Source: a virus
Virus record (IMG/VR): IMGVR_UViG_3300027965_000072
Location: 1 to 46,608 of that record
DNA: 46,608 nucleotides
Strand: one strand, 5' to 3'
The notes beneath the pieces are model-generated. The model searched no databases, was not told where the DNA came from, and saw nothing but the letters and a program-made list of their open reading frames with translations. Shown here in pieces: positions 535 through 44,838 of the stretch (position 1 is the stretch's first letter; the number at the start of each line of letters is the position of its first letter). A program made the position numbers and the translations under genes.

Positions 535-1674
535 TCATTCCCCCACCGCCTTCTTCCCCTGCATCGCAGCCCGCTGCGCCTCCGCCGAAGGATGCACATA
601 CCGGTGAATCGTCCTCAGCGAAGAATGCCCCAGGATCGCCGCGACCACCGCCACCGGCACCCCCTCCTCGATCTTCCGCGTCGCAAACGTATGACGGAAG
701 TCGTACACCACGAACGACACGCCTGCCTCCAGGCAGATCCGGTCATGCGTCGTGTTCAGGTTCCCCAAGTGGTGCCCCGGATGCCGCTCGCTCGGAAACA
801 GCCACTCGCTCGGCAGCTTCGCCCGCCGCTCCAAAATCGCCACGCTCGCATCCGTCAGGTACAGCGTCCGCCGTGCCGCGCGCGTCTTGCCACCTTCGAT
901 CTTCTGCGTCTTTGCCGCCGCATCGAAGGACCAGACCCGTGCCGCCAGCAGCTCCTCCGGCCGCGCGCCCTGCTCGAGCATCAGCCGGGCCAGGTCCGCC
1001 ATGTTCGGCTGCGCATCCTTCACGCTCTTGATATGGATCGCGTGCAATGCCGCCGCGGCTTCGAAATACAGCCGCTCCTCCTCCGCCGTGATCACATGCT
1101 CCCGCACCGCCTCCCGATCGCTCGGGATCGCCACCTCGCGGCGCCCGTCCGGCCCGCGCCCCAGCGGATTCGCCTTCGCCAGTCCGCGCCGGCACGCATA
1201 CTTCCCGAAAAACACCGACAGCGCATGCAGATCGTGCCGGATCGTCACATCCCGCACCGCGTGCACGCGCGCCCGATGCTCGCGGTACGCCTCGATCGCC
1301 GCCGCGCCGATCTCCGCCACCGGCATCTCGCCATAGAACTCGATCGCCGACTGGAAGCTGACGCGCAGCCGCTCCGCCGTCGCCGGTTTCGCCCGATACT
1401 CGACGTCTTTCGCCCACGTCAGAAATGCCTCGGCCGCCTGGCGAAACGGCGCCGACTCGCCAAGCCGCACCACCGCTGCCGCCGCCTTCGGCCGTAGCCC
1501 GGCGCGTTCGATCTCCACCCTCCGCGCGGCCGCGAACTCTTCAGCCGCGCTCCGATTTGAGACGTCGCCGGCGTACCCGGTCGGTCCCGAATACTCCCTG
1601 CCCCGGAAATTGAAGCGGTAATGCCACTGGCCGTCCCGCACCCGCACGTTGCGCCCCTTCGTCAGATCGTCCAT
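535..1674 (-). CDS. int: Tyrosine-family site-specific integrase
   Basis: 379 aa. It catalyses integration of the phage into the tRNA-Cys gene and, with a directionality factor, excision. The N-terminal part (about 1-180) looks like the arm-binding and core-binding domains, and the C-terminal part is a phage-integrase catalytic domain. Visible catalytic residues are R238 in GARPEEL, a lysine in GGKTRAARR, R327-H328 in YDFRHTFATR, H350 in LGHSS and the nucleophile Y359 in HRYVHP. The first His of the usual HxxR box is a Tyr (Y324). The ATG at 1674 was chosen because AAGGAG lies 7 nt upstream; the frame is open to 1716. It overlaps the end of the excisionase-like gene by 134 nt in another frame. 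Its place beside attL is as expected for an integrase. Confidence 0.95.
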   Translation of the reverse strand: MDDLTKGRNVRVRDGQWHYRFNFRGREYSGPTGYAGDVSNRSAAEEFAAARRVEIERAGLRPKAAAAVVRLGESAPFRQAAEAFLTWAKDVEYRAKPATAERLRVSFQSAIEFYGEMPVAEIGAAAIEAYREHRARVHAVRDVTIRHDLHALSVFFGKYACRRGLAKANPLGRGPDGRREVAIPSDREAVREHVITAEEERLYFEAAAALHAIHIKSVKDAQPNMADLARLMLEQGARPEELLAARVWSFDAAAKTQKIEGGKTRAARRTLYLTDASVAILERRAKLPSEWLFPSERHPGHHLGNLNTTHDRICLEAGVSFVVYDFRHTFATRKIEEGVPVAVVAAILGHSSLRTIHRYVHPSAEAQRAAMQGKKAVGE

Positions 1675-1882
1675 AGCCCTGCTCCTTCCGGAGCGATTGT
1701 AGCCACCTTTCGACATCCTCTGCCGCGTACTTAATGGTTCGGTACCCGATCCGGAGCGCCCGCGGCCCGCGCCCGTCCAGTCTCCAATCGTCGAGAGTCC
1801 GCTCCGACACCCCCAGCTTCTCCGCCAGTTCCCCGGGAGAGTAGAGCCGCTGCTCGATCAGCGGCTGCAGCATCGCGCTCAC
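1541..1882 (-). CDS. xis: Excisionase-like small MerR/HTH_17 DNA-binding protein
   Basis: 113 aa. Residues about 13-65 (YSPGELAEKLGVSERTLDDW ... EDVERWLQS) form a winged helix-turn-helix of the excisionase/AlpA type, which places a recognition helix in DNA and bends it. Such proteins set the direction of integrase action or act as small regulators. The GTG at 1882 overlaps the TGA of the ParB-like gene (GTGA), so translation is probably coupled; an ATG at 1873 is the alternative. The last 45 residues are Arg/Gly-rich and overlap the integrase start in another frame, so the functional part is probably only the first 70 residues. The xis role is inferred from position and fold type. Confidence 0.75.
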   Translation of the reverse strand: MSAMLQPLIEQRLYSPGELAEKLGVSERTLDDWRLDGRGPRALRIGYRTIKYAAEDVERWLQSLRKEQGYGRSDEGAQRAGAGRPVALPLQFPGQGVFGTDRVRRRRLKSERG

Positions 1883-9086: not shown

Positions 9087-9117
9087 TTGACAATAGACTA
9101 TTGTCACGATACAATAG
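9087..9117 (+). promoter_or_regulatory. higBA promoter and operator
   Basis: TTGACA at 9087..9092, a 17-nt spacer and TACAAT at 9110..9115 make a near-consensus sigma-70 promoter. A perfect inverted repeat GACAATAG-A-CTATTGTC (9089..9105) covers the -35 box and spacer. A further half-site ACAATAG (9111..9117) overlaps the -10 box. HigA-type antitoxins bind such sites, so autorepression is likely. Transcription should start at about 9121-9123, which is the GTG of higB. Confidence 0.85.
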
Positions 9118-9121
9118 TCTC

Positions 9122-9397
9122 GTGATCGAAAGTTTCCGCAGCAAGGCGCTCGAACAGTTGTTCAACGGCAAGCCCAAGCTGGTGGAAGCGTCCCTGCGCC
9201 GCAAGGTCGAAAACATCCTGGTCGCCCTGGCCGCCGCCCCGGAGATCGCCGCCATGGATCTCCCCGGCTTCGATCTCCACCAGCTCCAGGGCGACCAGGC
9301 CGGAACGTGGGCCGTCAAGGTCAATAAGAATTGGCGCATCACTTTCCGCTTCGAAAACGGCAGCGCCCACGATGTCGATTTCGTGGACTACCATTAG
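9122..9397 (+). CDS. higB: HigB-family toxin (RelE-like mRNA interferase)
   Basis: 91 aa. HigB toxins cut mRNA on the ribosome. The sequence has the family layout: N-terminal [15 protein letters not shown], middle [20 protein letters not shown], then LPGFDLHQL and the C-terminal [17 protein letters not shown] ... DVDFVDYH, including the conserved W-I-F strand and final DYH. Start: GTG at 9122. Because the promoter predicts transcription to start at this codon, the mRNA would be leaderless. higA follows 8 nt downstream. The pair probably stabilises the prophage or defends against other phages. Confidence 0.92.
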
Positions 9398-9405
9398 GAG
9401 AAACC

Positions 9406-9690
9406 ATGCAGATGAAGAACCCGCCCCATCCCGGCCGCATCGTCAAAGACGAATGCCTCGCGCCGCTCGGCCTGACCGTCACCGCGGCCGCTCGTGTCCT
9501 CGGTGTCACCCGCCAGACTCTCAATAACCTGGTCAACGAAAAGGCCGGCATCTCTCCCGAAATGGCCGTGCGTCTCGCCAAAGCCTTCGGGAGCACCGCG
9601 GAGGCCTGGCTCCGCATGCAGGTAATCTACGACCTCGCCCACGTCCCCGAATCCGAAATCGCCGTCAAACGCTACAGAAAGGCGTCCTGA
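9406..9690 (+). CDS. higA: HigA-family antitoxin, Xre HTH
   Basis: 94 aa. The sequence [20 protein letters not shown], then [20 protein letters not shown] and the [20 protein letters not shown] segment are characteristic of HigA/VapI-type antitoxins: a five-helix Xre domain that binds the operator and neutralises HigB. TAGGAG lies 6 nt before the ATG. Its TGA sits in a 10-bp palindrome (TGAGCGCTCA, 9688..9697) that also holds the stop codon of the convergent beta-helix gene. Confidence 0.92.
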
Positions 9691-20100: not shown

Positions 20101-23100
20101 CTATAGCCCCTCGATCACCACGCACGCCGCCGCGCCGCCGGCCCCCGGCGTAATCTGGTAGTCCGCCGTCGAACCGTTCAGGCTATCCCCCGTGTTCTCG
20201 CGCAGCCACACCGAATGCGTGCTCCCCGCGGCCAGGTTGAACGTCAGATCCTTGCCGCTCATCCCGCTCTCCGCCGGCAGCAGCAGGTACACGTCCTGCG
20301 TCGTCGCCACGATGTTGTACACCGCGGCCTCCGCCGGCAGCACAAACGGGCTCCCCGTCGTGCCCGCCCCCGCCAGCGCCGGCGAGCTCGTCCCGTTGGT
20401 GATCGCATACGAGATATCGGCCCCGGCTTGCAGCAGCAGCCCCTGCGTCGAGTTCCCCGTCAGGCACACGTAATGGACCGGCGAATCCCCCCAGCCGTTC
20501 GTCACGCTGCCGCCCACGCTCACCAGCTTCGTTCCCGGCAGCGGTTGCAGCAGCGACCAGTCCGCGAACGCCGCCGAATTCACGAAGCTCAGCGGAAATG
20601 CGCACGTCTGCACCGTCTGCTCGACCGCCCAGCAGCTCGCCCCGTTCGCCGCGGCCGCCGCCGTGCTCCCGAGCTGCCCGCGCGCAATCGGCACCACGCC
20701 GCTGCTCGGCGCGCCCGTTGCCTGCACGATCTCCGCCCCGATCTGCAAATAGTCGCCCGAAGCCACATGCGAGGCGTCCGTCAGCGTGACAGTCGCATCG
20801 CTCGCGCCCAGCGCCGCCGCCAGCGTAGTCAGCGGACTATTTGGCAGCACGTAATAGAAAGTCCACGTCCCCGCAGTGATCGAATAAGCATTCGTCAGGT
20901 CCGAGAACGCCAGCCCCGTCACTTCGGCAGAGCTCCCGTCCCCGCCAGCCTCCACCGCGAACGTCGGCGGCACGGTCGGACCCACCCCCACCTTCGGCGC
21001 CGATCCATACTGAGGGTCCTGCGCATTCCCGTGCGAATCCAGATACCACGAATCCTCGTGATGGTGCCCCGCCAGCGTGATCGTCTGCCAGTTCTTCGCC
21101 GGCTTGATCTCCGTGAGCCGGATCTGCTGATCCGTCATCCCGTACTTCGTGCTATTCACCGTCACGATCTGCCCGATGCGCAGCTTGCACCCGCGGAAGC
21201 TCGTCTCCCACTCCCAGAAGTCCGTCCCGCGCGTATCGCCTTCCGGATTCCCCCGGTGGATCTTGTTCAGCCCCAGCCGCGCGCACCGCAGCGCATGGTT
21301 GTAGCTCGCGATCCCCTCCGGCTGCACCTGCAAGCCGCCCTGCACCGTGCGCCCCACCCGCGCCACATCGTCCGAATCCACCAGGCTGAACGTCGAAATC
21401 GCGTAATCCTGCACCGGGTCCTGGAATCCGAAGGTGATCCGGTTCGGCATCTGCGCCACCGGCATCGGCCGCCGCTTCAGGTTCCAGCTATTCGTCTCGT
21501 CGAACCGGTACGCCGTGTACCCGTTCGCGGCCGTCCCGTCCCGCAGCGTGCTCGCGATCGCCGTGCTGTAGTTGCTCCCATCCACCGCTGCCGGCTGCTG
21601 CTCCGCCAGCGGGCCCTCGATCCGGAACCCGATCGTCCCGTCCTGCTCCTGCGTCAGCATCCCGCCCACCGACTGCCGCAGCCCCCGCATGATGTCCGCC
21701 GCGCTCCGCCGCTGCCGCAGCGCGACGGAATTCGAAAACCGCGGCTGCGTATAGTTGTTCCCCGAGCCGTCCTGCGTCGTAATCAGCGCGTTGCAGATCG
21801 CGTCCGAGTCGCTGAAGGTAGTGCCGTTCAGATCGCCCGGCTGCACCCCGCACCAGCTCAGCAGCTCCTGCGCCAGGCCCGGCGCGGGGCCGCCCCCCGA
21901 TTGCGTGACCTGGTTGTAGTACATCGTGCCGCCGCTGCCGCTGCCCGCCGGCGCAAAACTCCCCTGGAGCGTCGCATGATCGTATGGCGGAGGGTCGAGA
22001 AACCGCATGATCCACGAACCGTCCGCGTAATGGAACCCGGCGCCCGTGATCGTCACCGCCGCACCATCGTAAGGGTCCGTGGTCAGGGTCAGCGCGCGCG
22101 CAAAGTGAATCACGATGGGCCCCGGATTCCCGCTCGATCCCGCGTTCGCCGACACAATCGCGATCGAACTCGGCGTCACCAGCGTTCCGCCCACCGACTT
22201 CTGAGCCAGCACCTGAATCGTCGGCACCGTCTCCGGAGACACCACCGATTTCGGCACGCGCCACTCGATCACCGTCAGGTTGCCGTAAGGATCGCCCAGC
22301 CCGTTGTACCCGGCGTCCGGGTTCGGCGTGCCGTCACGCTGCCCATTGTTCGTGTAGGCCCAGTAGTAATCCGTGCCGCCGGCCGTGTTCTGCGTGCACT
22401 CCACCCCGTTCACGATCACCCGCTGCACCGCCACCTCGCCGAACCCGATCGCAGCCTCGCCGCGCGTGTAGTTCCCGTCCCCCATCTGGTTCAGCACCGC
22501 CACGGACATCCAGGCCATGCCGCCCAGCCACAGCGGCCAGTACTCGTTGTACTTGGCCGAGGTGTCCGCGTTGGTCCAGGAAACCTCGTTCCCGCTCACG
22601 TACTCCACGCCCGTGTCCGTCGTTTTCGGCACGAACGTCACGTTCCCGCGCCGGCGCGGCTGCGTGCAGGTCTGCGTGGTGTAGTTGCAGGGCGGCGCCG
22701 TCGTCAGGTCCCGCGTCTCCCCGCACAGCCAGTACGGCGAATCCTGGTAGGACGTCGCCGCCGCGGCCGCCGCCCGCTGCGCCACCGTCGTCGGATTCAC
22801 CCACGGGCACGTCACCTGGATCGGCACCGTCGGCAGCAGGTAATTCGCCAGGTTCAGCTTGGATTGCGCCGCCACCGTCAGATACTGCTCGTCGCTCGCC
22901 GGCTCGTCGCACACCCCCACGAACGGCACGAACTGATCCGTCGAATACGTCCCCGCCGAGAGATCCATCAGCGCAAACCGCAGCGTAAGTGCCGCGCCCT
23001 TGAAGCCGTGCCCCCGCTCGTACGCCGTGAAGGCAGCCGCGTCCGGGTCCGCCAGCTTCAGCGTCACCGAGGGCACCCGGTCGATCCCCTGCTGGCTCAG

Positions 23101-23280
23101 CACCTGCAACTGGTCCACCTGCTGGTCGTCGATCCGCGCCTCGTAGGTGTGCCCGTTGAACGTCGCCGGCACCGACGCCACATACCACGCCGTGCCATCC
23201 GGAAACGCGAAGTCGCAGAACACCACCGGCCGCGGCGCCGCCGCCTCTTCCTTGCCCGTGTTGATCGTGTAGCCGCCCAT
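20101..23280 (-). CDS. Tail-tip/baseplate hub protein (gpJ-like central tail protein)
   Basis: 1059 aa. Size, place after the minor tail proteins and directly before the fibre, and a multi-domain strand-rich sequence fit the central tail-tip hub that attaches fibres and contacts the cell. Segments in order: an N-terminal hub-like domain (residues about 10-140, VFCDFAFPDGTAWYVASVPA ... FVPFVGVCDEPA), a Cys-containing insertion (CPW, CGE, CNYTTQTC, about 165-210), a middle domain with DIMRGLRQSVGGMLTQEQDG (about 535), and a C-terminal part with carbohydrate-binding-like strands. I chose the ATG at 23280; a GTG inside the palindrome at 23301 is also in frame. The family assignment is by layout more than by motif. 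Confidence 0.75.
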   Translation of the reverse strand: MGGYTINTGKEEAAAPRPVVFCDFAFPDGTAWYVASVPATFNGHTYEARIDDQQVDQLQVLSQQGIDRVPSVTLKLADPDAAAFTAYERGHGFKGAALTLRFALMDLSAGTYSTDQFVPFVGVCDEPASDEQYLTVAAQSKLNLANYLLPTVPIQVTCPWVNPTTVAQRAAAAAATSYQDSPYWLCGETRDLTTAPPCNYTTQTCTQPRRRGNVTFVPKTTDTGVEYVSGNEVSWTNADTSAKYNEYWPLWLGGMAWMSVAVLNQMGDGNYTRGEAAIGFGEVAVQRVIVNGVECTQNTAGGTDYYWAYTNNGQRDGTPNPDAGYNGLGDPYGNLTVIEWRVPKSVVSPETVPTIQVLAQKSVGGTLVTPSSIAIVSANAGSSGNPGPIVIHFARALTLTTDPYDGAAVTITGAGFHYADGSWIMRFLDPPPYDHATLQGSFAPAGSGSGGTMYYNQVTQSGGGPAPGLAQELLSWCGVQPGDLNGTTFSDSDAICNALITTQDGSGNNYTQPRFSNSVALRQRRSAADIMRGLRQSVGGMLTQEQDGTIGFRIEGPLAEQQPAAVDGSNYSTAIASTLRDGTAANGYTAYRFDETNSWNLKRRPMPVAQMPNRITFGFQDPVQDYAISTFSLVDSDDVARVGRTVQGGLQVQPEGIASYNHALRCARLGLNKIHRGNPEGDTRGTDFWEWETSFRGCKLRIGQIVTVNSTKYGMTDQQIRLTEIKPAKNWQTITLAGHHHEDSWYLDSHGNAQDPQYGSAPKVGVGPTVPPTFAVEAGGDGSSAEVTGLAFSDLTNAYSITAGTWTFYYVLPNSPLTTLAAALGASDATVTLTDASHVASGDYLQIGAEIVQATGAPSSGVVPIARGQLGSTAAAAANGASCWAVEQTVQTCAFPLSFVNSAAFADWSLLQPLPGTKLVSVGGSVTNGWGDSPVHYVCLTGNSTQGLLLQAGADISYAITNGTSSPALAGAGTTGSPFVLPAEAAVYNIVATTQDVYLLLPAESGMSGKDLTFNLAAGSTHSVWLRENTGDSLNGSTADYQITPGAGGAAACVVIEGL

Positions 23281-23297
23281 CGCATGCGAAGCGGCGC

Positions 23298-23309
23298 GCA
23301 CACGTGTGC
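23298..23309. promoter_or_regulatory. Dispersed palindrome, site 4 (GCACACGTGTGC)
   Basis: Perfect copy in the 48-bp gap between the gene ending at 23329 and the start of the hub gene. Confidence 0.75.
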
Positions 23310-23630: not shown

Positions 23631-24356
23631 TTAGCTCACCAGTTGCTGCACTTCCAGCCGCAGATCGTTCTCGTTCGGCCCCAGCACCCGCCACTGCGCC
23701 CGGTCCGACGCAAACCGGCTCGAGTACACCGTCCCGCTGTCCGGGTCCCGGAAGAGGAAACTGCGCCACCGCCCCGCGTTCAGCCGGTAGTAATCCCACA
23801 GCGCCTGCGCCTCCGTGTCCGTCAGCGCCGCACCGCCCACCGCCCATCGCCGCAGCGCGTTCAGCCGCCGCGCATAGGCGTACCGGCCGCCCTCCGTCCG
23901 CACCGAGGCCGTATCGAAGTTCTCCGCATGCGTGAACGGCAACTGGACCACCGCCCCGCTCAACAGCACCGGAAACGACGAGGCCAGCGCGCCCGTGTCC
24001 ACCGCCCGCGCCGCCGTCGTCAGCTTCACCGACCCGCTCCAAAGCGTCGGCCGCCCCGCCTGCTCCGTGAACACCAGCTCGTCCGCATCGAAGGACAGCC
24101 CGGTGTAATTCGTCGTGCCGCACATCAGGCTCACCGTCTGGTCGTATGCGCCCTTGCAGGCCTCGAACACCGCCAGAATCGCGTCCCGGTCCGCCAGCGC
24201 CAGATAGGTATACGGCAGCGTCCACGACTCCACCCCCGGCGACAGCATCCACCGCTGCTCCGTGCCGTCGATCCCCGTCGCAATCCCCGTCGTGAAGGAC
24301 AGCTCGTGCACCACCGGCGTCCCCCACGCCGGCGTGGTCGGATACACCTGCGCCAC
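23631..24356 (-). CDS. DUF2460-like distal tail protein
   Basis: 241 aa from a GTG. The C-terminal section (GGAALTDTEAQALWDYYRLN, GRWRSFLFRDPDS, SDRAQWRVLGPNENDLRLEV) resembles the DUF2460/gene-transfer-agent tail family, with the FRDPD-type loop. The N-terminal half (VVHELSFTTGIATGIDGTEQ, SWTLPYTYLAL) is strand-rich and fits a distal-tail ring. It probably joins the tail tube to the hub. Confidence 0.7.
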   Translation of the reverse strand: MAQVYPTTPAWGTPVVHELSFTTGIATGIDGTEQRWMLSPGVESWTLPYTYLALADRDAILAVFEACKGAYDQTVSLMCGTTNYTGLSFDADELVFTEQAGRPTLWSGSVKLTTAARAVDTGALASSFPVLLSGAVVQLPFTHAENFDTASVRTEGGRYAYARRLNALRRWAVGGAALTDTEAQALWDYYRLNAGRWRSFLFRDPDSGTVYSSRFASDRAQWRVLGPNENDLRLEVQQLVS

Positions 24357-24713: not shown

Positions 24714-27700
24714 TTACCCCATCCGCTGCTGCAGCGCCGCCACCGTATCCTCCGCGTTCCCGCCCTGCACCGCCCCCGCGATCCCCGCGCTCAGCGCTGC
24801 CGGATTCCGCAGCAGGAAATCCTGCAAGCTCACCGAGTCCATCGCATACAGCGTGTTGCTCACCTGGATCTGCCGGCTCTGCCCCAGGAAATTGGTATCC
24901 GTGTACTTCCCCGAAGCGTCGAGCGAATACTCCGCCCCGCTCGGCATGGTGAAGCTGCGCTCCTGCGCTTCCTTCTGAAGCTGCTGCTGCCGCTGCTGCT
25001 TCGGATCGCCCAACAGCGCCGTAATCAGCCCCAGCCCCATCCCCACCGCCATCCCGATCGGCCCCGCCTCGCTCAGCGACTTGCTCAGCAGCGGCAGCAC
25101 CGAGCCCATCATCCCCGCGAAGCTCGCCCCCGCCGAAAGCCCGCCGCGCAGGCCGCCTTCCGAAACCCCGTTGTAAATCCCGAATCCGCCGGCCGCCAGC
25201 GCCGCCCCGATCCCCAGATCTTTCCCCCAGCCGCCGCCGGCATAATTCGCCGGGTTCCCTGTCAGACCAACCGACCCCCACGCCAGCCCCGGATTGAATC
25301 CCACGCCGCCCGGCAAGTTGGCCAGGTCCGCCGGCGTCGGCGCGGCTCCGTAATCCAGCGGATTCCCCGTCAGCCCCGCCAGCCCCCATGCCAGCGACGA
25401 ATTGAACCCGGACCCCGGCAAAGCAGCCAGCGCCGCCGGACCCCCCGTCAGCCCCGCCAGGCCCCACGCCAGCGACGGACTGAACCCGCCATCGCCCATC
25501 GGCAGCGCCCGCATCGCCGCCGTATTCGCGATCGTCGCCTGCGTATTGGCATCCAGCGCCACCTTCTGCGCATCCGGTCCGAACGGCGTCCCCGCCAGCA
25601 GGTTCCCCAGGAAGCTCCCCGCTCCCGCGTGCGGAATGAGCTGGCTGATCTCCTTCCAGCCCATCTGCGCGAAGTTTCCCACCACCGTGTCCGCCAGCCC
25701 CAGCCCCTGCTGCCGCGCAAAATCCCCCAGGTGCCCCGTGCGCCCCGCATTGAAGGCCCCGACCGCGAGCGATCGCCACTTCTCCAGCCGCTGCTGCTCG
25801 AGCTCCGCCAGCTTCAGCTCCCGGTCCAGGTCCGCGTCGTACATCTCGCGATGCAGATCCGCCAGCGCCTTCGCCTGGTCGATCGCCTTCGCGTGCAGGT
25901 CCTCTTCCTGCTCCGCGGCCGCCATGTCGAACGTGTAGAGCTGCTGCGCCAGCGAGAGCCGCATCGCATACCCCGCCGCGATCGCCTCGCCCTCATGCCC
26001 GGGCCCGAGTTGGAGCTGCTGCAGCCGGTCCTGGCGATTCACCGTCCGCACGATGTCCTGCCGGTTCGTCTCCTGGTGAATCCGAGCGATCTCCTCCCCC
26101 GTCCGGACGCCGGCCTCGACCTCGGCCAGAAACCCCTTCACGGCCTCGCCGCTCTCTTTGCCCAGCAACTGGTACACCGGGGTCCAGGCCGCCGACGCCT
26201 CCGCCGCGCTCCGCGCCGCCAGCTTCTCCCCCTGCTTCTCGAGCTCCTCCTGCTGCTTCTGCATCTCGACCGACACGCCGCCAAATGCCGCCGCCGCCGC
26301 CCGCGCCGGATCCGCTCCCCTCGCGATCAGCGCATCCATCTGCTGCAGAATGCGCTCCACCGGGCTCGAGCCGGCCTCGAACATCTGCTTCTCGAACGCA
26401 TCCAGCGCGTGCTCTGCGTCCAGCGCATCCTTCGCCGCCTTCGCCCGCGCCTCCAGCCCCGCCACCACTCCCTTCTGCTCGGCGATCTGGTCCGCGATCG
26501 GCCCCGTCACCGAATACGGCGCCTTGAGCTGAATCTGCGATTGCAGTTGCCCCTGCAAGTCCCGCAGCTTGTTTCGCGCCGCCTCCATCTCGCCGGCATC
26601 GCCCATCGGTGCCAGCGCGCTCGCAAAAGACAGCGCCGAGGCATCCACCGCCACGGGAGCACCGAACCCCGCCGCGATCCCCCGGTTCCGCTCCGCCTGG
26701 AGCGCATCCCGGAAGCGCTTCTCCTGCGCGTCCGAGACGTAACCGGCCGCCTCGAGCGCCCCGAACCGCCGCTCCAGATCCTCCGCCGGCGTCTTCCCGA
26801 TTTGCCCCATCAGCGCCTGCACCGCCGCCGCGCCGATGTCCGAGACGTCCCCCGTCACGCCCCGCACCGCGATCGAAAACGTCGCCGCCAGCGGCTCCTT
26901 GATCCGCGCCGCAAACTCTTCCCACCGCGCCTCGGCCTCGGCGATTTGCTTGTGGTACTGCTCCCAGCTATGGATGTCCTTCTCGTCGATTCCTAACCCC
27001 AGCTCTTTCGCGCGCTCCAGGTTCTCGCTCAGCCCAATGATCGTCGGCATCAGCTCGATCCCCGCGCGTCCGAACACCAGCAGCGCTTCGGCGTTCCGCT
27101 TCGCCGGCTCCTCGATCCGGTTCAGCGATTCCGAAATCTGCAGGAAGATATCCGACATCGGCCGCAGCTTGCCGTTCGCATCGTAAGCCTGCACCCCGAG
27201 ATCCGCCAGCCCCTGCCGCGCCCGCTTGCCCTCTTCGCTGGTATCGCCGAGGCCCTGGCTCAGCTTCCGCATCGCCGCCTCGAACACGCTCACATCCTGG
27301 CCCGCCGCCCGCGCCGCAAAGCTGAACTGCCCGACCTCCTTCGTCGTCAGCCCGGTCCGTAGCGCCGTGTTCTCGATCTGCGTCGCGTATTCGCCCAGCG
27401 CGTGCGCCGCTTCGAAGGCCGCCGTCCCCGCCGCGCCGAAGATCCCGGCCGCCGCGGCCAGTCCCGCACCCAGGGGTCCCACCGCCCTCAGCGCCGCCTC
27501 GGAGGCCTCCCCGATCGCCTGCAGTGGGTTCTCGATCCCCTCTTTGACCTTCTCCGCGAACTCGCCGAACCCGTCGTGCTCGTTGAGAGCCTCGCCGTGC
27601 TTGCCCGCGCCCTCGATCGCCGCGCCCAACCGCTCGAAGGACTGCGCCAGCCGCTCGACGTCCGCCGTCCCGACGCCCTGCGCCGAGACCACGCTGCTGA

Positions 27701-27716
27701 ACTGCGTTACTGGCAC
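24714..27716 (-). CDS. Tail tape measure protein
   Basis: 1000 aa. This is the longest late gene. It sits after the tail tube and G/GT chaperones and before the tail-tip proteins, as tape measures do. The N-terminal part has the tape-measure pattern of alpha-helical and Ala/Gly-rich membrane-like stretches (GPLGAGLAAAAGIFGAAGTA) and TTKEVGQFSFAARAAGQDVS. The middle (about 360-650) is coiled coil. The C-terminal third is Gly/Leu-rich with three degenerate repeats and a hydrophobic block. At roughly 1.5 angstrom per residue the tail would be about 150 nm. It scaffolds tube length and is ejected with the DNA. Confidence 0.9.
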   Translation of the reverse strand: MPVTQFSSVVSAQGVGTADVERLAQSFERLGAAIEGAGKHGEALNEHDGFGEFAEKVKEGIENPLQAIGEASEAALRAVGPLGAGLAAAAGIFGAAGTAAFEAAHALGEYATQIENTALRTGLTTKEVGQFSFAARAAGQDVSVFEAAMRKLSQGLGDTSEEGKRARQGLADLGVQAYDANGKLRPMSDIFLQISESLNRIEEPAKRNAEALLVFGRAGIELMPTIIGLSENLERAKELGLGIDEKDIHSWEQYHKQIAEAEARWEEFAARIKEPLAATFSIAVRGVTGDVSDIGAAAVQALMGQIGKTPAEDLERRFGALEAAGYVSDAQEKRFRDALQAERNRGIAAGFGAPVAVDASALSFASALAPMGDAGEMEAARNKLRDLQGQLQSQIQLKAPYSVTGPIADQIAEQKGVVAGLEARAKAAKDALDAEHALDAFEKQMFEAGSSPVERILQQMDALIARGADPARAAAAAFGGVSVEMQKQQEELEKQGEKLAARSAAEASAAWTPVYQLLGKESGEAVKGFLAEVEAGVRTGEEIARIHQETNRQDIVRTVNRQDRLQQLQLGPGHEGEAIAAGYAMRLSLAQQLYTFDMAAAEQEEDLHAKAIDQAKALADLHREMYDADLDRELKLAELEQQRLEKWRSLAVGAFNAGRTGHLGDFARQQGLGLADTVVGNFAQMGWKEISQLIPHAGAGSFLGNLLAGTPFGPDAQKVALDANTQATIANTAAMRALPMGDGGFSPSLAWGLAGLTGGPAALAALPGSGFNSSLAWGLAGLTGNPLDYGAAPTPADLANLPGGVGFNPGLAWGSVGLTGNPANYAGGGWGKDLGIGAALAAGGFGIYNGVSEGGLRGGLSAGASFAGMMGSVLPLLSKSLSEAGPIGMAVGMGLGLITALLGDPKQQRQQQLQKEAQERSFTMPSGAEYSLDASGKYTDTNFLGQSRQIQVSNTLYAMDSVSLQDFLLRNPAALSAGIAGAVQGGNAEDTVAALQQRMG
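25252..25495 (-). repeat. Three degenerate repeats in the tape measure
   Basis: Protein repeats of the form GF(S/N)xxLAWGLAGLTGxP appear three times (SPSLAWGLAGLTGG, NSSLAWGLAGLTGNP, NPGLAWGSVGLTGNP), separated by 15-20 residues. Confidence 0.85.
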
Positions 27717-27964
27717 GCGATCTCCTCCTTCGCCGTCCGCAGCACCACCCCGCCATGGCGCTCCCGAATCTCCGCTTCCGGCATCCCCAGCCGCAGCAGG
27801 TGCTTCGCTTCCCGCACCCGCTCGTTAAAGGCCGGATTGCCCGAGCCGCCGAGGTCGATCGCAAGCGCCCGCACCGGCCGCCAGCCGCGAGCCGGCGCCC
27901 TCGGAATAACCTCGTCCGGGCCGCCCTCGCCCGGCGCATTCAGCACCTCTCGCCGCTCGCTCAC
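27707..27964 (-). CDS. Hypothetical protein upstream of the tape measure
   Basis: 85 aa from a GTG that overlaps the J-domain stop (GTGA); GTG at 27973 is also in frame. The sequence ends FNERVREAKHLLRLGMPEAE then IRERHGGVVLRTAKEEIACQ, a helical, charged part. No family is recognised. Its stop overlaps the tape-measure start. The place suggests a tape-measure-associated chaperone or tail-assembly factor, which is inference. Confidence 0.65.
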   Translation of the reverse strand: MSERREVLNAPGEGGPDEVIPRAPARGWRPVRALAIDLGGSGNPAFNERVREAKHLLRLGMPEAEIRERHGGVVLRTAKEEIACQ

Positions 27965-28233
27965 CGCCACCACCCCAGCGTCACGGAGCTGCCGGTGCTG
28001 AACGCGAAGGCCATCCGGCTCTGCCGCAGCGCCGCGTCATACCGCGCACGCCGCTCCGGATCGCGTAGTTGCTCCCGGGCCCAATTGAGCGCCTGCGCGG
28101 CCGCCGGGCCGGCGCCCGGATTCACATCCGGATGCACCTGCCGCATCAGGGCCTTCCACGCCGCCTCAATGACCTCCGCGCACGCCGTCTCCTGCACCTG
28201 CAGCACTTCGTACGCCGTCAGTTCCCGCGTCAC
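27961..28233 (-). CDS. J-domain (DnaJ-like) co-chaperone
   Basis: 90 aa. Residues 6-68 form a J domain: AYEVLQVQETACAEVIEAAW, KALMRQVHPDVNPG with the invariant HPD, then QALNWAREQLRDPERRARYD. The J domain stimulates DnaK ATPase activity, so the protein would recruit the host Hsp70 to a phage client. No zinc finger or substrate-binding domain follows; the 20 C-terminal residues are short and end GWWR. The GTG at 28233 overlaps the upstream stop. It lies among tail-assembly genes just before the tape measure, so the client may be the tape-measure or tail-assembly complex. Confidence 0.88.
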   Translation of the reverse strand: MTRELTAYEVLQVQETACAEVIEAAWKALMRQVHPDVNPGAGPAAAQALNWAREQLRDPERRARYDAALRQSRMAFAFSTGSSVTLGWWR

Positions 28234-28307
28234 TCCCGCACCCTCCGCAGCACCGCCTCGATCTCCTCCACGCTCAGCCACACCCCGCTCGCCAGCCGCC
28301 GCACCAT
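28230..28307 (-). CDS. 25-aa ORF before the J-domain gene
   Basis: Translates as a short amphipathic helix (VRRLASGVWLSVEEIEAVLR) and ends in the GTGA overlap with the J-domain gene. No start codon is in frame between 28307 and the upstream stop at 28340. It may only couple translation. A palindromic site lies at 28326..28337, just upstream. Confidence 0.4.
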   Translation of the reverse strand: MVRRLASGVWLSVEEIEAVLRRVRE

Positions 28308-28325
28308 CGCGACCTGCCACTCGTC

Positions 28326-28337
28326 GCACGCGTGTGC
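28326..28337. promoter_or_regulatory. Dispersed palindrome, site 5 (GCACGCGTGTGC)
   Basis: One-mismatch version in the gap between the zinc-ribbon stop at 28340 and the next ORF. Confidence 0.7.
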
Positions 28338-28339
28338 GC

Positions 28340-28531
28340 CTACTCCCGGGCCCGCGCCGCCGCCCGCTTCGCCGACTGCCGGGCCGCCGCCCGCGCCACG
28401 CGCTCCCGCGTCCGCTCCGCCTGGCACGCCGGGCACCGCGACTGCTGCGGCGCCGTCGCCGTGAACTCCCGTGCGCACCGGATGCAGACCCGCGGGCGCG
28501 GCGTCCATTTCCTTGCCCGATCCCAAATCAC
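28340..28531 (-). CDS. Small zinc-ribbon protein
   Basis: 63 aa from GTG at 28531, which overlaps the upstream stop (GTGA). Two Cys pairs (VCIRCAREF and SRCPACQAER) about 13 residues apart form a classic zinc ribbon. The C-terminus is a highly basic Arg/Ala helix, suggesting nucleic-acid contact. It lies in the tail-assembly region between a structural protein and the J-domain gene. Function unknown. Confidence 0.75.
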   Translation of the reverse strand: MIWDRARKWTPRPRVCIRCAREFTATAPQQSRCPACQAERTRERVARAAARQSAKRAAARARE

Positions 28532-29139
28532 GCAGCCCGCTTCCACAGCCGCTTCGCTTCGCTCAGCGCGGCCGCCCCGATCAGCCCCATCCCGGCCAGA
28601 TACTCCGCCGTCCCGCCCTGCCAGATCTCCGCCGCCAGCGCCGTCAGCTTCGCCACGCTCTCCGCCGTCCAGCCCCACCACGGCGCGCGCCTCTCGTTCG
28701 CCCGCGCCTTGATGCGCGCCTGGTTCGATGTGATCGAGATCGTCGCCTGCCGGTCATCCAGCGAATTGATCCGGATCTCATCGAGCATGTGCCCGTCTTT
28801 CCCCGGTCCGTACAGATCCCGGACCGGCTGCAGCCCGTGCGCCGCTTTCCAGTCCGCGTACGTCTTCCGCGTGAACTGCGCGCGCCCGTTCACCCGGGCC
28901 ACGAACACCGCCCGCTGCCCGCCCTTCAGCGGCGGCATCGGCGTCCCATCCGACCCGATCCCCGCCCGCGCCTGCGCCACCTGCAGCGCGATCCCGTAAT
29001 CCGCGAGCTGCTTCACCTGCTCCGCCTTCACCCAATCCGCATCCCGCCGCGTCCGCACCCGCCGCCCTTCGAAGTCGCGAAACCACGCCACTTCGCCCCC
29101 GTCCTTCCGGTGCGTGATCTGAATCTTCGGCATCGGCAT
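28528..29139 (-). CDS. Minor structural/virion-morphogenesis-like protein
   Basis: 203 aa. The middle and end (LYGPGKDGHMLDEIRINSLD, SNQARIKARANERRAPWWGW, TAESVAKLTALAAEIWQG) resemble phage virion-morphogenesis proteins with an RAPWxG loop. The C-terminus has a hydrophobic Gly-rich stretch (AEYLAGMGLIGAAALSEA). The position after GT and before the tape measure fits a tail-assembly or tail-completion role. Start ATG at 29139; a second ATG at 29133 is equally possible. Confidence 0.55.
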   Translation of the reverse strand: MPMPKIQITHRKDGGEVAWFRDFEGRRVRTRRDADWVKAEQVKQLADYGIALQVAQARAGIGSDGTPMPPLKGGQRAVFVARVNGRAQFTRKTYADWKAAHGLQPVRDLYGPGKDGHMLDEIRINSLDDRQATISITSNQARIKARANERRAPWWGWTAESVAKLTALAAEIWQGGTAEYLAGMGLIGAAALSEAKRLWKRAA

Positions 29140-29156: not shown

Positions 29157-29633
29157 CTAGCGCCTCGACTGGCTCCGGATGTAATCCGCCTTCGCCCGCT
29201 CGAACTCCCCGTCCGCCCGCTCGACTTCCCGGCTCAGCAGCGCCACCGTGTCCACCCACCGTGCCGGCCACAATGAGCTGTCCGCGCCATACAGCACCCC
29301 GCCCGTCGCCCGGTGCACCCGCTCGGCCCTGTGGTAGCGGTCGACCGCCTCCACCGCTCCGTGCTCCCGCTCGAGCAGCGACCGCGGACACTCCCGCGAC
29401 TCCACATCCACCGCCCACTGGATCTTGCCGTCGCCGGTCTGGTATCGCGCCTTCCAGACGGCCTTGCCGTCCGGATCTACGGCGTCATACCGGTGCTCGG
29501 GGCACTGGCACTTCCCGGGCCCGTGGTATTTCCGGCATCCCCGGCCGAAATCGTCGCCGAGCTCCCGGCAGCGGCCGCACTTCCACTGCTCCCTGCCCCA
29601 TCCACCGCTGCGGCCGAAGTGGAGGGCGATGAT
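29157..29633 (-). CDS. T part of the GT tail assembly protein, reached by -1 frameshift
   Basis: 158 codons in the -1 frame, read after slipping at 29633..29639. With the first 181 codons of G they give a GT protein of about 339 aa. The part carries a zinc-ribbon-like Cys set (WKCGRCRELG, RGCRKYHG, KCQCPEH) and a helical C-terminus (ALLSREVERADGEFERAKAD). GT-type proteins hold the tape measure and recruit tail-tube subunits. The composition is protein-like, while the zero-frame tail of G in the same DNA is low-complexity. Confidence 0.75.
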   Translation of the reverse strand: MIALHFGRSGGWGREQWKCGRCRELGDDFGRGCRKYHGPGKCQCPEHRYDAVDPDGKAVWKARYQTGDGKIQWAVDVESRECPRSLLEREHGAVEAVDRYHRAERVHRATGGVLYGADSSLWPARWVDTVALLSREVERADGEFERAKADYIRSQSRR

Positions 29634-30175
29634 AAATTTTCCGCCTCTTCCGCCAGCAGCCCCAGCTCGCGCTTCACCTCGCGCGCAATCTCGCCGCGCA
29701 GCTGGTCCGGGCCGTCCTCGAGCAGCTCCTCGATCCCCGCCGGCTGCCCGTCGATCTCCAGGCCCTCGATCGACACCACCACCACGCGCATCGCCGCCGG
29801 CTCCAGCTCCCGCTTCTCGATCCGCCGGATCGCGGCCGAAAGCTCCGCCCACCGCCGCAGCTTGTCATCCGGGAAATCCACGCTCCCCATCGGGAACCGC
29901 TCCAGCGCTTCCGTCTCGCTCGCTCCCGCCGCGATCGCCGCCCGCCGCTCCGCCGCGCCCTCAGCGCGTGCCTTCCGCATCGCCTCCAGGTAATCGCGAT
30001 TGAGCGGCGTAAACTCCTCGAACAGCGGCCGCAGTTGTGCCTGCGCGCCGGCCTGCTGGTCCTCCAGCGCCTCCCGCCGCCGCTCGTTCATCCGCCGCAG
30101 AACGAACACTACCCCCGGCATCGTCCGCGATTCCACCCGCCGTTGCGATACGTAATTCACACTCCCACTCCCCAT
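29477..30175 (-). CDS. Tail assembly chaperone G
   Basis: 232 aa in the zero frame. Residues 1-180 are charged and helical (VFVLRRMNERRREALEDQQA, LNRDYLEAMRKARAEGAAER, RRWAELSAAIRRIEKRELEP). The last 50 are a Ser/Ala/Gly-rich low-complexity tail. G-type chaperones coat the tape measure before tube assembly and lie, as here, between the tail tube and tape-measure genes. The start at 30175 overlaps the preceding small gene. The slippery heptamer is at codons 180-181, and the T frame begins there. Confidence 0.78.
   Translation of the reverse strand: MGSGSVNYVSQRRVESRTMPGVVFVLRRMNERRREALEDQQAGAQAQLRPLFEEFTPLNRDYLEAMRKARAEGAAERRAAIAAGASETEALERFPMGSVDFPDDKLRRWAELSAAIRRIEKRELEPAAMRVVVVSIEGLEIDGQPAGIEELLEDGPDQLRGEIAREVKRELGLLAEEAENLSSPSTSAAAVDGAGSSGSAAAAGSSATISAGDAGNTTGPGSASAPSTGMTP
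29633..29639 (-). promoter_or_regulatory. -1 ribosomal frameshift heptamer A AAT TTA
   Basis: The minus strand reads A AAT TTA in the G frame, a canonical X XXY YYZ slippery site. Tandem slippage gives AAA TTT in the T frame. An AT-only heptamer is rare in this GC-rich DNA. About 20 nt downstream GCAGCGG can pair with CCGCTGC further on, a possible stimulatory stem. Confidence 0.8.
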
Positions 30176-30396
30176 ACTGCCCCGCCGCCATCCGGCCGCA
30201 CCATCCGCTCCAATCGTTCGACCTTGGCCGCCGCTCTCTGTGCCGCCGCGCGCAGCTCCGCCAGGTCCGCGCGCCACGGGCCGGCCGGCGCGCCCGCCAG
30301 CGCCACGGCCGCGGCGCTCAGGATGATCGTGAGCTCGTCATTGAGCTCCATCGTCAACGCCGCGGCCACCGCGCGCCTTCGCTCTTCCACCGTCAT
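30157..30396 (-). CDS. Small helical protein resembling a HisKA dimerisation domain without its His
   Basis: 79 aa. The sequence ALTMELNDELTIILSAAAVA, a short loop, and DLAELRAAAQRAAAKVERLE has the two-helix layout and spacing of histidine-kinase dimerisation domains (usual AHELNNxLT motif), but Met stands where the phospho-accepting His would be. It starts 7 nt after the tail-tube gene and overlaps the start of G. This may be a chance resemblance of a helical hairpin that acts in tail assembly. Confidence 0.6.
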   Translation of the reverse strand: MTVEERRRAVAAALTMELNDELTIILSAAAVALAGAPAGPWRADLAELRAAAQRAAAKVERLERMVRPDGGGAVWGVGV

Positions 30397-42130: not shown

Positions 42131-42319
42131 TCACAGCGGGTACTCCCAAAACCCGAACTCGTCCAACCGGCCGTAGCCGCGCGTCAAAAGCCCGTCGATG
42201 CCAGTCGAGCAGCTCGGCCGCACACCGGCCGCCGCCAGGAAGCATGCGATCTCATGCCGCATCTCGGCTGGGATCGGATTCGGCCCAGGCCCGAAACAGC
42301 GCACGCGATAGAACCTCAC
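42131..42319 (-). CDS. Small protein coupled to the primase-helicase
   Basis: 62 aa from the GTG at 42319, which overlaps the stop of the helicase gene (GTGA). The sequence FYRVRCFGPGPNPIPAEMRH, IACFLAAAGVRPSC, DGLLTRGYGRLDEFGFWEYP is not recognised. It is the last gene of the replication operon before the iteron region and could be an origin-binding or replication accessory protein, which is inference from position. Confidence 0.65.
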   Translation of the reverse strand: MRFYRVRCFGPGPNPIPAEMRHEIACFLAAAGVRPSCSTGIDGLLTRGYGRLDEFGFWEYPL

Positions 42320-44838
42320 ACCAGCACCGCCTGCTGCGCCGAGGCCAGCCGCGCCGCCGGCGTATAAGGCCGGTACACCCATGCGCGGCCGCCGCCTGAC
42401 GTCCGGATCTTATGCCGCTTCCACCCCTGCACCCGCAGAATCGCCGCCACGCGATTCGCATCCGCCTGGCTAAACCGCCCCTTCTGAATGTCCAGACAGT
42501 CCGACATGATCCGGTCGATCGAAACCTCTTCCACGTCGCGCAGAAAGGTGCGCACCAGGACATCCCACGGGTCTTCGCGATAGCGCGCAGCCTGCTCCTC
42601 TTGAGCCGTGGCCACGACTTCCTGCTGATCGAGCCACCACGCCTCGCCCTGCTCGAACCGCACCCGCGCCTCGGCCCACAACTGGGGACAGTCCCGCTCG
42701 AGCGCCTTTTGATCGATCGCGCCACACGTCACCGGCCAGAATCGCCGTGCGCCCGTCTCATCTCGATTCCACACGTCTTGATTCGTGGTCGCCGCAAAGA
42801 TGCACTGCCGCGGAATGTTGACCAGTCGCCCCGCATACGGCGGCCGGTACCGCTCCGTCGTGCGTGACATGAAGGCCTTGACGCCCTCCACCTCGGCCTT
42901 AGTCATACTGTTCAGCTCGGCGACCTCGATAATCCACACGCCGTGCGTCTGCAACGAGGCATCCTTCGACTCCATCGCCTCGATCTGATCCGTGAACCAC
43001 TCCTCGTTCCGCGCCAGAAGCTTCAACGCGGTCGATTTCCTCGCGCCTTGCGGCCCCTCCAGCACCAGCGCGCAGTCCGCTTTACATCCCGGCCGCATCA
43101 CGCGCGCCACCGCCGAAATCAGCCATTTCGCGCCCACCGATGCCAGGTAGAGCGGCCGCCGGTCCGGCTCCGCCTCCACCGGCGCGGCGCCCAGATACCG
43201 CTCCAGCCAGATATGCAGCCGAGGCTCGCCATCCCATTCGAGCGTCTTCAGCCACTCCCGCACCGGATGAAACGCATGATCGTAGGCCACAGACTCCACC
43301 GCCCGCCCCGCAATCTCGATCGACACCTCGATATCGCGCCGCTGCAGCCAGTCCGCCGTGCGCACGTCGTGCATGTTGGTCCACTCGCCGTCCGGCATGT
43401 CGATCGGCGGCCGCTTCCGCGCCACCGTCCGCACTGCGAACTCGTCATGCCAGAGCACGCCCTGCCACTCCGGAGCATGCCGCAGCGCCGTAATCGCATT
43501 GGCCAGGTTCCCGCGAGGCTGCCCGTTGCCGGCGCGCAGCAGCAGCGATCGCCAGTGCGGCTCCTCGCCGCCGCCACCGTCGCTGCCCCCATCGCCGCCA
43601 CCGCGCCGTGCCTTCGCGATCGCCTTCCGCACGTCCCGCAGCTTCAGCCGCCGATCGAAGTGTCCAGCGAGCCGGGCCAGCGCCTTACCGCACGCGATAT
43701 CGTCGGCAGCCGCCATCCGCGGCACCAGGTCAAAGACCGCAATCGGATCGTCCGCCGCGACGACCGCCTCCACCGCCTGCATCAGCTCGAAGGTCTCGGC
43801 CGGAATCACCTTCTCCGTCGACGAGCTCGCCGGCGCCGGCGCTGGACACGACGGCTTCGGTGCCGATCGCCCCGCAATGCCCAGCACCACCGGCGATTTG
43901 ACCTTCGCCTGACACGCATCGCAGAAGCGTGCCCCGCCGAGCGAGTGCCGGATCTTCGCGCAGCTCGCCGGCCCCGCGTCCCGGAGCGCGTGCGCCAGCT
44001 TGGCGGATGTCTCGCGCGCCGAATATCCCGGATACGCGCTGCTCACGTCCTGCGCGATCTGCTCGCCGTTCTCGCAGCGCCCGAGAATCGAGAGCTGCGC
44101 ATACCACTCCGGTTCGCTCAGCGTCCGCGCATTCTCGACGCTCCACTGTAGCCAGGCGCACCCGCGCGCGATCGCACCGAAATCCGCCGGCGGCCACATA
44201 TTCCCGCCCGATACCGGCTTCTTGCCCTCACTGCCCTCCGCAATCCTGGCCTTAACCAGCTCGATCAGCCAGCCCGGCGCCGCCGGAAGCTCGCCCGCCG
44301 GCTCGATATCCCAGAAATAGGCATCGCCGCCGGCATGCGCGAGCGACGGCGGCATTACGACGTTGTGCCCCTCGAGCAGGACCTCCAGGCCTTCGTCCAG
44401 CTTGATCGAGCCCTGATCCGTATCGAGGCCCTCGGGCCACCGGAAATGCTCGTGCGTCCCCTTGCCGCCGGTCACAGCGGTCGGACACTCGATCGCGCCA
44501 TGCTGCTCGATCAGCCGCCCGCGCGACCAGTCCCCGCCATTCCGCGGGTCCATATCCAGCACCAGCGTGCCGGATGCCTTGCCGGACACGACCCCAACGT
44601 TGGCCAGAGGCCACGCATTCCACCAGTCACGGATGCGCCGCGGATCGGTGGAAGCCCGCTCCGCCCATTTCGCGAATCGCGGATGCTTCCCCGGCGTCGG
44701 ACACGATTCGCGCCCGTTCTCGGCGCGCCACTCCTCGCAGGTGCACTTCCCCTCCGCCGTCAGGTTGTGCAGCGGAATGACGCGCCACCCGCGCTTCGCG
44801 TAATCGAGCGCCGCCTGGAGCAGGATTTTCGCGCTCAT
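42316..44838 (-). CDS. Primase-polymerase and VapE-type helicase fusion, replication protein
   Basis: 840 aa. Residues about 10-200 are a bifunctional primase/polymerase (prim-pol) domain: GWRVIPLHN, then GVVSGKASGTLVLDMDPRNG with the catalytic Asp cluster, and EGHNVVMPPSLAH. Residues about 575-760 are a VapE-type (virulence-associated E) ATPase: LVLEGPQGARKSTALKLLAR with Walker A near residue 598, HGVWIIEVAELNSM, PRQCIFAATTNQDVWNRDE, GARRFWPVTCG. The protein would open and prime the phage origin. It overlaps the upstream zinc-ribbon gene by ATGA. Confidence 0.92.
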   Translation of the reverse strand: MSAKILLQAALDYAKRGWRVIPLHNLTAEGKCTCEEWRAENGRESCPTPGKHPRFAKWAERASTDPRRIRDWWNAWPLANVGVVSGKASGTLVLDMDPRNGGDWSRGRLIEQHGAIECPTAVTGGKGTHEHFRWPEGLDTDQGSIKLDEGLEVLLEGHNVVMPPSLAHAGGDAYFWDIEPAGELPAAPGWLIELVKARIAEGSEGKKPVSGGNMWPPADFGAIARGCAWLQWSVENARTLSEPEWYAQLSILGRCENGEQIAQDVSSAYPGYSARETSAKLAHALRDAGPASCAKIRHSLGGARFCDACQAKVKSPVVLGIAGRSAPKPSCPAPAPASSSTEKVIPAETFELMQAVEAVVAADDPIAVFDLVPRMAAADDIACGKALARLAGHFDRRLKLRDVRKAIAKARRGGGDGGSDGGGGEEPHWRSLLLRAGNGQPRGNLANAITALRHAPEWQGVLWHDEFAVRTVARKRPPIDMPDGEWTNMHDVRTADWLQRRDIEVSIEIAGRAVESVAYDHAFHPVREWLKTLEWDGEPRLHIWLERYLGAAPVEAEPDRRPLYLASVGAKWLISAVARVMRPGCKADCALVLEGPQGARKSTALKLLARNEEWFTDQIEAMESKDASLQTHGVWIIEVAELNSMTKAEVEGVKAFMSRTTERYRPPYAGRLVNIPRQCIFAATTNQDVWNRDETGARRFWPVTCGAIDQKALERDCPQLWAEARVRFEQGEAWWLDQQEVVATAQEEQAARYREDPWDVLVRTFLRDVEEVSIDRIMSDCLDIQKGRFSQADANRVAAILRVQGWKRHKIRTSGGGRAWVYRPYTPAARLASAQQAVLV

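Follow-up and report, generated by a model that had tools for sequence, protein, structure and literature searches.

A viral genome that encodes a stand-alone J-domain protein beside its tape-measure gene raises the question of whether that protein helps to build the tail or came to lie there for other reasons. The window considered here is the whole stretch of 46,608 nucleotides that was analysed, and an initial annotation had proposed that its J protein could enlist the DnaK of the host for folding or holding the tape measure or G/GT complex, and that the neighbouring orphan protein may be its adapter.

A J-domain gene in the late operon

The J-domain gene was placed at the right coordinates by the initial annotation but lies on the minus strand (28233..27961), and encodes a 90 aa protein from a GTG start with a GGAGG-type ribosome-binding site upstream. 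The protein matches the PF00226 DnaJ profile at E = 1.5e-12 and 47.8 bits (cut-off 27.8) over profile positions 2-63 of 63, the HPD motif is intact at residues 34-36 between helices II and III, and by sequence it is matched as well by the DnaJ models of NCBIfam and by 25 solved J domains. The assignment is far beyond chance, and the stand-alone HPD-containing J domain described beside the tape-measure region is real; it is the one J domain in the whole 46.6-kb viral record. In common with the J domains of E. coli DnaJ and CbpA, of the same family, it has the HPD and a helix III-IV motif (ERRARYD, like QKRAAYD), but the protein ends 24 residues past the Pfam match and has neither the G/F region, nor the zinc-binding domain, nor the C-terminal substrate-binding domain that characterise type I and II DnaJ/CbpA proteins, in agreement with the earlier remark that it has no substrate domain. 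Helix II is also not basic. A basic patch on this helix forms part of the surface with which J domains dock on DnaK. Here helix II (EVIEAAWKALMRQV) has a net charge of 0, with one Lys and one Arg remaining, as compared with +5 in E. coli DnaJ, +3 in human DNAJA1 and +1 in L002, the nearest relative, and DnaK binding could therefore be weak or altered.

The AlphaFold model of the J protein, built on two sequences, has low confidence (mean pLDDT 55.6), and its helices (7-12, 19-33, 39-55 and 59-80) have the order and placement seen in J domains. A fold search with this model gave DnaJ domains as the two top matches, neither of them significant (best E = 0.12) because of the low confidence of the model. 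Only a single sequence represents this kind of J gene, and this lone occurrence, together with the weak basic patch and a C-terminus that is short compared with that of L002, could point to a horizontally acquired J-protein fragment that is expressed and has little or no function. However, the frame is open with a normal third-position GC of 0.86, the HPD and helix III/IV motifs are intact and the gene has its own ribosome-binding site, and we regard such a passenger as quite improbable.

The surrounding late operon is read entirely leftward, from the major capsid protein (Phage_cap_E) through small head-tail genes, the tail tube (Phage_tube_2), the G/GT tail assembly chaperone pair and the gene that we call vm to an insert that contains the J gene, and then the tape measure. 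The vm gene (28528..29112, minus strand, start provisional) is a conserved gene of tail/head-completion type; in relatives the tape measure follows it directly. The tape measure (27716..24714, minus strand, 1000 aa) matches the PHROG tape measure family at E = 1.3e-19 and falls just under the cut-off for Pfam PhageMin_Tail; its GTG start has an AGGAGG on its 5' side, within the end of the orphan gene, with which it shares a short overlap. Start/stop overlaps and ribosome-binding sites are present throughout the operon, the J gene included, so that translation of the J gene would be tied to that of the late tail genes, and its product is accordingly predicted to appear late in infection.

The G/GT pair (29157..30277, minus strand) consists of two overlapping open frames, 30277..29477 and 29852..29157, of which the G start is provisional, and the overlap contains a slippery heptamer for a -1 frameshift, A_AAT_TTA, at 29639..29633 on the minus strand. 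This is a retrovirus-type heptamer, as opposed to the better-known G/A-rich ones of lambda-like phages. The same heptamer occurs at the matching place in five diverged relatives (L011, L033, L034, L043 and L021), and the ordinary tail assembly chaperones are thereby accounted for. We considered the J gene as a part of G/GT and rejected this, since a separate frameshift pair is present upstream. As with lambda-type G/GT, the window pair is encoded between tail tube and tape measure, and the J gene lies in the same operon, but it is a different gene from the G/GT pair with its conserved slippery site.

An insert at the vm/tape-measure junction

The 811 bp insert (27717..28527, minus strand) separates vm from the tape measure. 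Its GC content is 73.7% as compared with a genome mean of 66.7%, which places it in about the top 0.5% of genome pieces of the same size, and it contains a zinc-ribbon-like gene, a possible 25-aa micro-ORF, the J gene and an 85-aa orphan, mostly joined by stop-to-start overlaps. The zinc-ribbon-like protein (28531..28340, minus strand, 63 aa) has a CxxC...CxxC arrangement and an Arg/Ala-rich tail, and its gene starts with a GTG that overlaps the preceding gene's stop codon; no relative of the protein was found in phages or in related loci. A weak match to it in L036 (E = 0.005) was rejected, as it arises upstream of the gene, from vm sequence read out of frame. The micro-ORF (28230..28307, minus strand, 25 aa) is a weak candidate; its stop codon and the start codon of the J gene overlap. 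The start of the orphan gene (27964..27707, minus strand, 85 aa) and the stop codon of the J gene overlap as GTGA. The orphan belongs to no known family, and neither the phage collection nor any related locus contains a match to it. Three helices are predicted in its C-terminal half (residues 44-84) with a pLDDT of about 96, and a fold search returned helix-turn-helix-like matches only, none of them significant.

The relatives are arranged differently at this position. In three viral contigs with a vm 71-75% identical to that of the window (L011, L033 and L034), the stop codon of vm and the start of the tape-measure gene share a TGATG; vm and tape measure are directly adjacent in an Acidobacteriia prophage contig (L043, vm 55% identical), and vm also directly adjoins the tape measure in the more distant L008, L009 and L012. 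The J gene and orphan are absent from the junction in all of the close relatives found (L011, L033, L034 and L043). The tape measures of L011 and the window can be aligned from residue 1 to the end at 37-41% identity, and because they align from the first residue the difference is placed at the junction itself. PF00226 gave no match in 24 related viral records, each scanned over its full length and most of them fragments, whereas the absence at the junction is direct. These 24 are eight capsid relatives, the tape-measure fragment L003 and fifteen more (L036 and L037 lie in records already counted), and the searches may have omitted near-identical records of the window. Searches with the tape measure or the distal-tail protein alone yielded almost no relatives, and alignments of capsid, vm and hub were more productive for viral contigs; against bacterial genomes, the hub alignment found no relative and the capsid alignment found one Acidobacteriia prophage contig (L043).

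The initial annotation was correct in calling the position of the J gene unusual, and nothing lies between vm and tape measure in the relatives. With the insert absent from their junctions, parsimony favours a gain in the lineage of the window over repeated loss. Because the closest relatives do without it, the J gene appears to be an optional, inserted addition rather than a regular component of tail building, and the comparison shows it, as far as these sequences go, to be accessory and to lie outside the ancestral tail-assembly machinery, of which the separate G/GT pair is the representative. In the manner of a moron, the insert lies between two conserved genes and is missing from otherwise collinear relatives. 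A moron would also carry its own promoter and terminator; a scan restricted to sigma-70-type sites gave no promoter-like sequence on either strand of the insert, nothing resembling a terminator was found on the coding strand, and the insert genes are coupled.

How do these data bear on recruitment of DnaK to the tape measure or G/GT complex, with the orphan as substrate adapter? The location of the J gene in an insert directly upstream of the tape measure, the tight translational coupling, the lack of a substrate domain in the J protein itself and the confidently predicted helical C-terminus of the orphan are all consistent with it. However, homologous tape measures, including that of L011 at 37-41% identity, have no J gene there, the window has an intact standard G/GT pair of its own, and the weak fold matches of the orphan are helix-turn-helix-like and not significant. 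The anticipated conserved link to tail genes was not borne out at the junction in near relatives or in the 24 viral records, and neither was a conserved J/orphan pair found, so that the proposal, possible as it is, has lost its main prediction. We therefore consider it improbable, and a dedicated tail-assembly co-chaperone is not supported by the comparison; a place beside the tape measure is by itself no evidence for a role in tail assembly. A related suggestion is that the insert is a portable late cassette in which zinc-ribbon protein and orphan would bring the J domain, and host DnaK with it, to the nascent tape measure or another late phage protein. This appears very unlikely, and if true it would be a tail-assembly aid for the window phage that its relatives do without.

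Comparison with other phage J proteins and a proposed role

Phage J-domain proteins are known, and their roles are mostly without experimental work. Among those examined, RB43 Rki is the one that has been studied experimentally: it is the early-expressed product of gene 057w of a T4-like phage, about 237 aa with an N-terminal J domain, it binds DnaK and stabilises sigma-32, its deletion impairs phage growth, and its C-terminal domain is required for its toxicity (PMC3486835). The window protein resembles Rki in being phage-encoded, with an HPD-containing J domain and host DnaK as the expected target, but at 90 aa it is without the large C-terminal domain and is encoded in a late tail operon. 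AXL3 gp60, a 111-aa DnaJ-domain protein of a Stenotrophomonas siphophage (PMC7504290), is likewise small and nearly J-only, although its gene lies in a DNA replication and repair module and not in a tail operon beside the tape-measure region.

The closest J relative is in L002 (IMGVR_UViG_3300050821_014117), with 53-54% identity over the J domain and EVIEAAWK in common, and was the only hit in a second J-profile scan of viral contigs. The L002 protein differs in being 141 aa long and in having an unrelated gene context without recognised tail genes; in this 51.7-kb, otherwise unclassified viral contig, the region around the J gene (L002:7489-8420) encodes small proteins that have a membrane-helix-like stretch at the C-terminus. 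In the annotated phages Rhizobium N65, Edwardsiella ZHS, Alteromonas R7M, Bacteroides BF1-TP2 and Brevundimonas Polewnik, the J gene has genes for replication, repair or other non-tail functions nearby, and that of Polewnik ends the early block next to a convergent lysis/tail-tip block. A gut phage contig without annotation carries its J gene close to a gene for a sigma factor. None of the annotated phages examined has a J gene beside the tape measure, and a literature search, mostly without subscription papers, found no report of one.

Could the J domain compete with host DnaJ for DnaK, altering heat-shock control or blinding a DnaJ-dependent defence sensor? Rki provides a precedent through its action on sigma-32 (PMC3486835), phage sensing by bNACHT25 needs host DnaJ (PMC12169576), and an accessory distribution is typical of genes for host takeover and counter-defence. 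Rki is expressed early, however, whereas the J gene here is in a late operon, and Rki toxicity needs a C-terminal domain that is missing from the 90-aa protein. As a full account we find this unlikely, if still a serious candidate.

The reading that we consider probable is of a genuine J-domain-only, Hsp40-type accessory co-chaperone, gained by insertion, made late and engaging host DnaK. The J gene and two other small genes would have been inserted where a conserved tail gene meets the tape-measure gene, and the J protein would be made together with the late tail proteins through stop/start overlap. The HPD loop would then most likely dock on host DnaK and trigger ATP hydrolysis, and DnaK may thereby be drawn to late phage proteins or away from its host duties. 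We infer both DnaK as partner and the accessory role. The outcome may be recruitment of DnaK to late phage proteins, a reading to which the late operon lends slight preference, or interference with the work of DnaK in the host or with DnaJ-dependent sensing (PMC12169576), for which the accessory distribution speaks slightly. A minimal J protein co-expressed with tail genes would offer a compact test of late redirection of host Hsp70 by phages.

Lifestyle, host and other genes of the phage

A tyrosine integrase is encoded at 1716..535 on the minus strand (Pfam E = 5.2e-20), and the phage is therefore probably temperate. The prophage at L043:10001-20800, in an Acidobacteriia metagenome-assembled genome, has related capsid, tube, G/GT, vm and tape-measure genes, and this one prophage with related head and tail genes suggests an acidobacterial host for the window phage. 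In the distal tail region (24356..23631 and 23301..20101, minus strand) there is a DUF2460 protein as in gene-transfer-agent-like tails, and the 1066-aa hub-like distal-tail protein has no Pfam family and no match in the phage collection. The plus strand carries a toxin-antitoxin pair at 9101..9690, with a HigB-like toxin (Pfam E = 3.1e-15) and, after it, an antitoxin-like gene of helix-turn-helix type, and an 840-aa fusion of a primase-polymerase and a VapE-like helicase is encoded at 44838..42316 on the minus strand.
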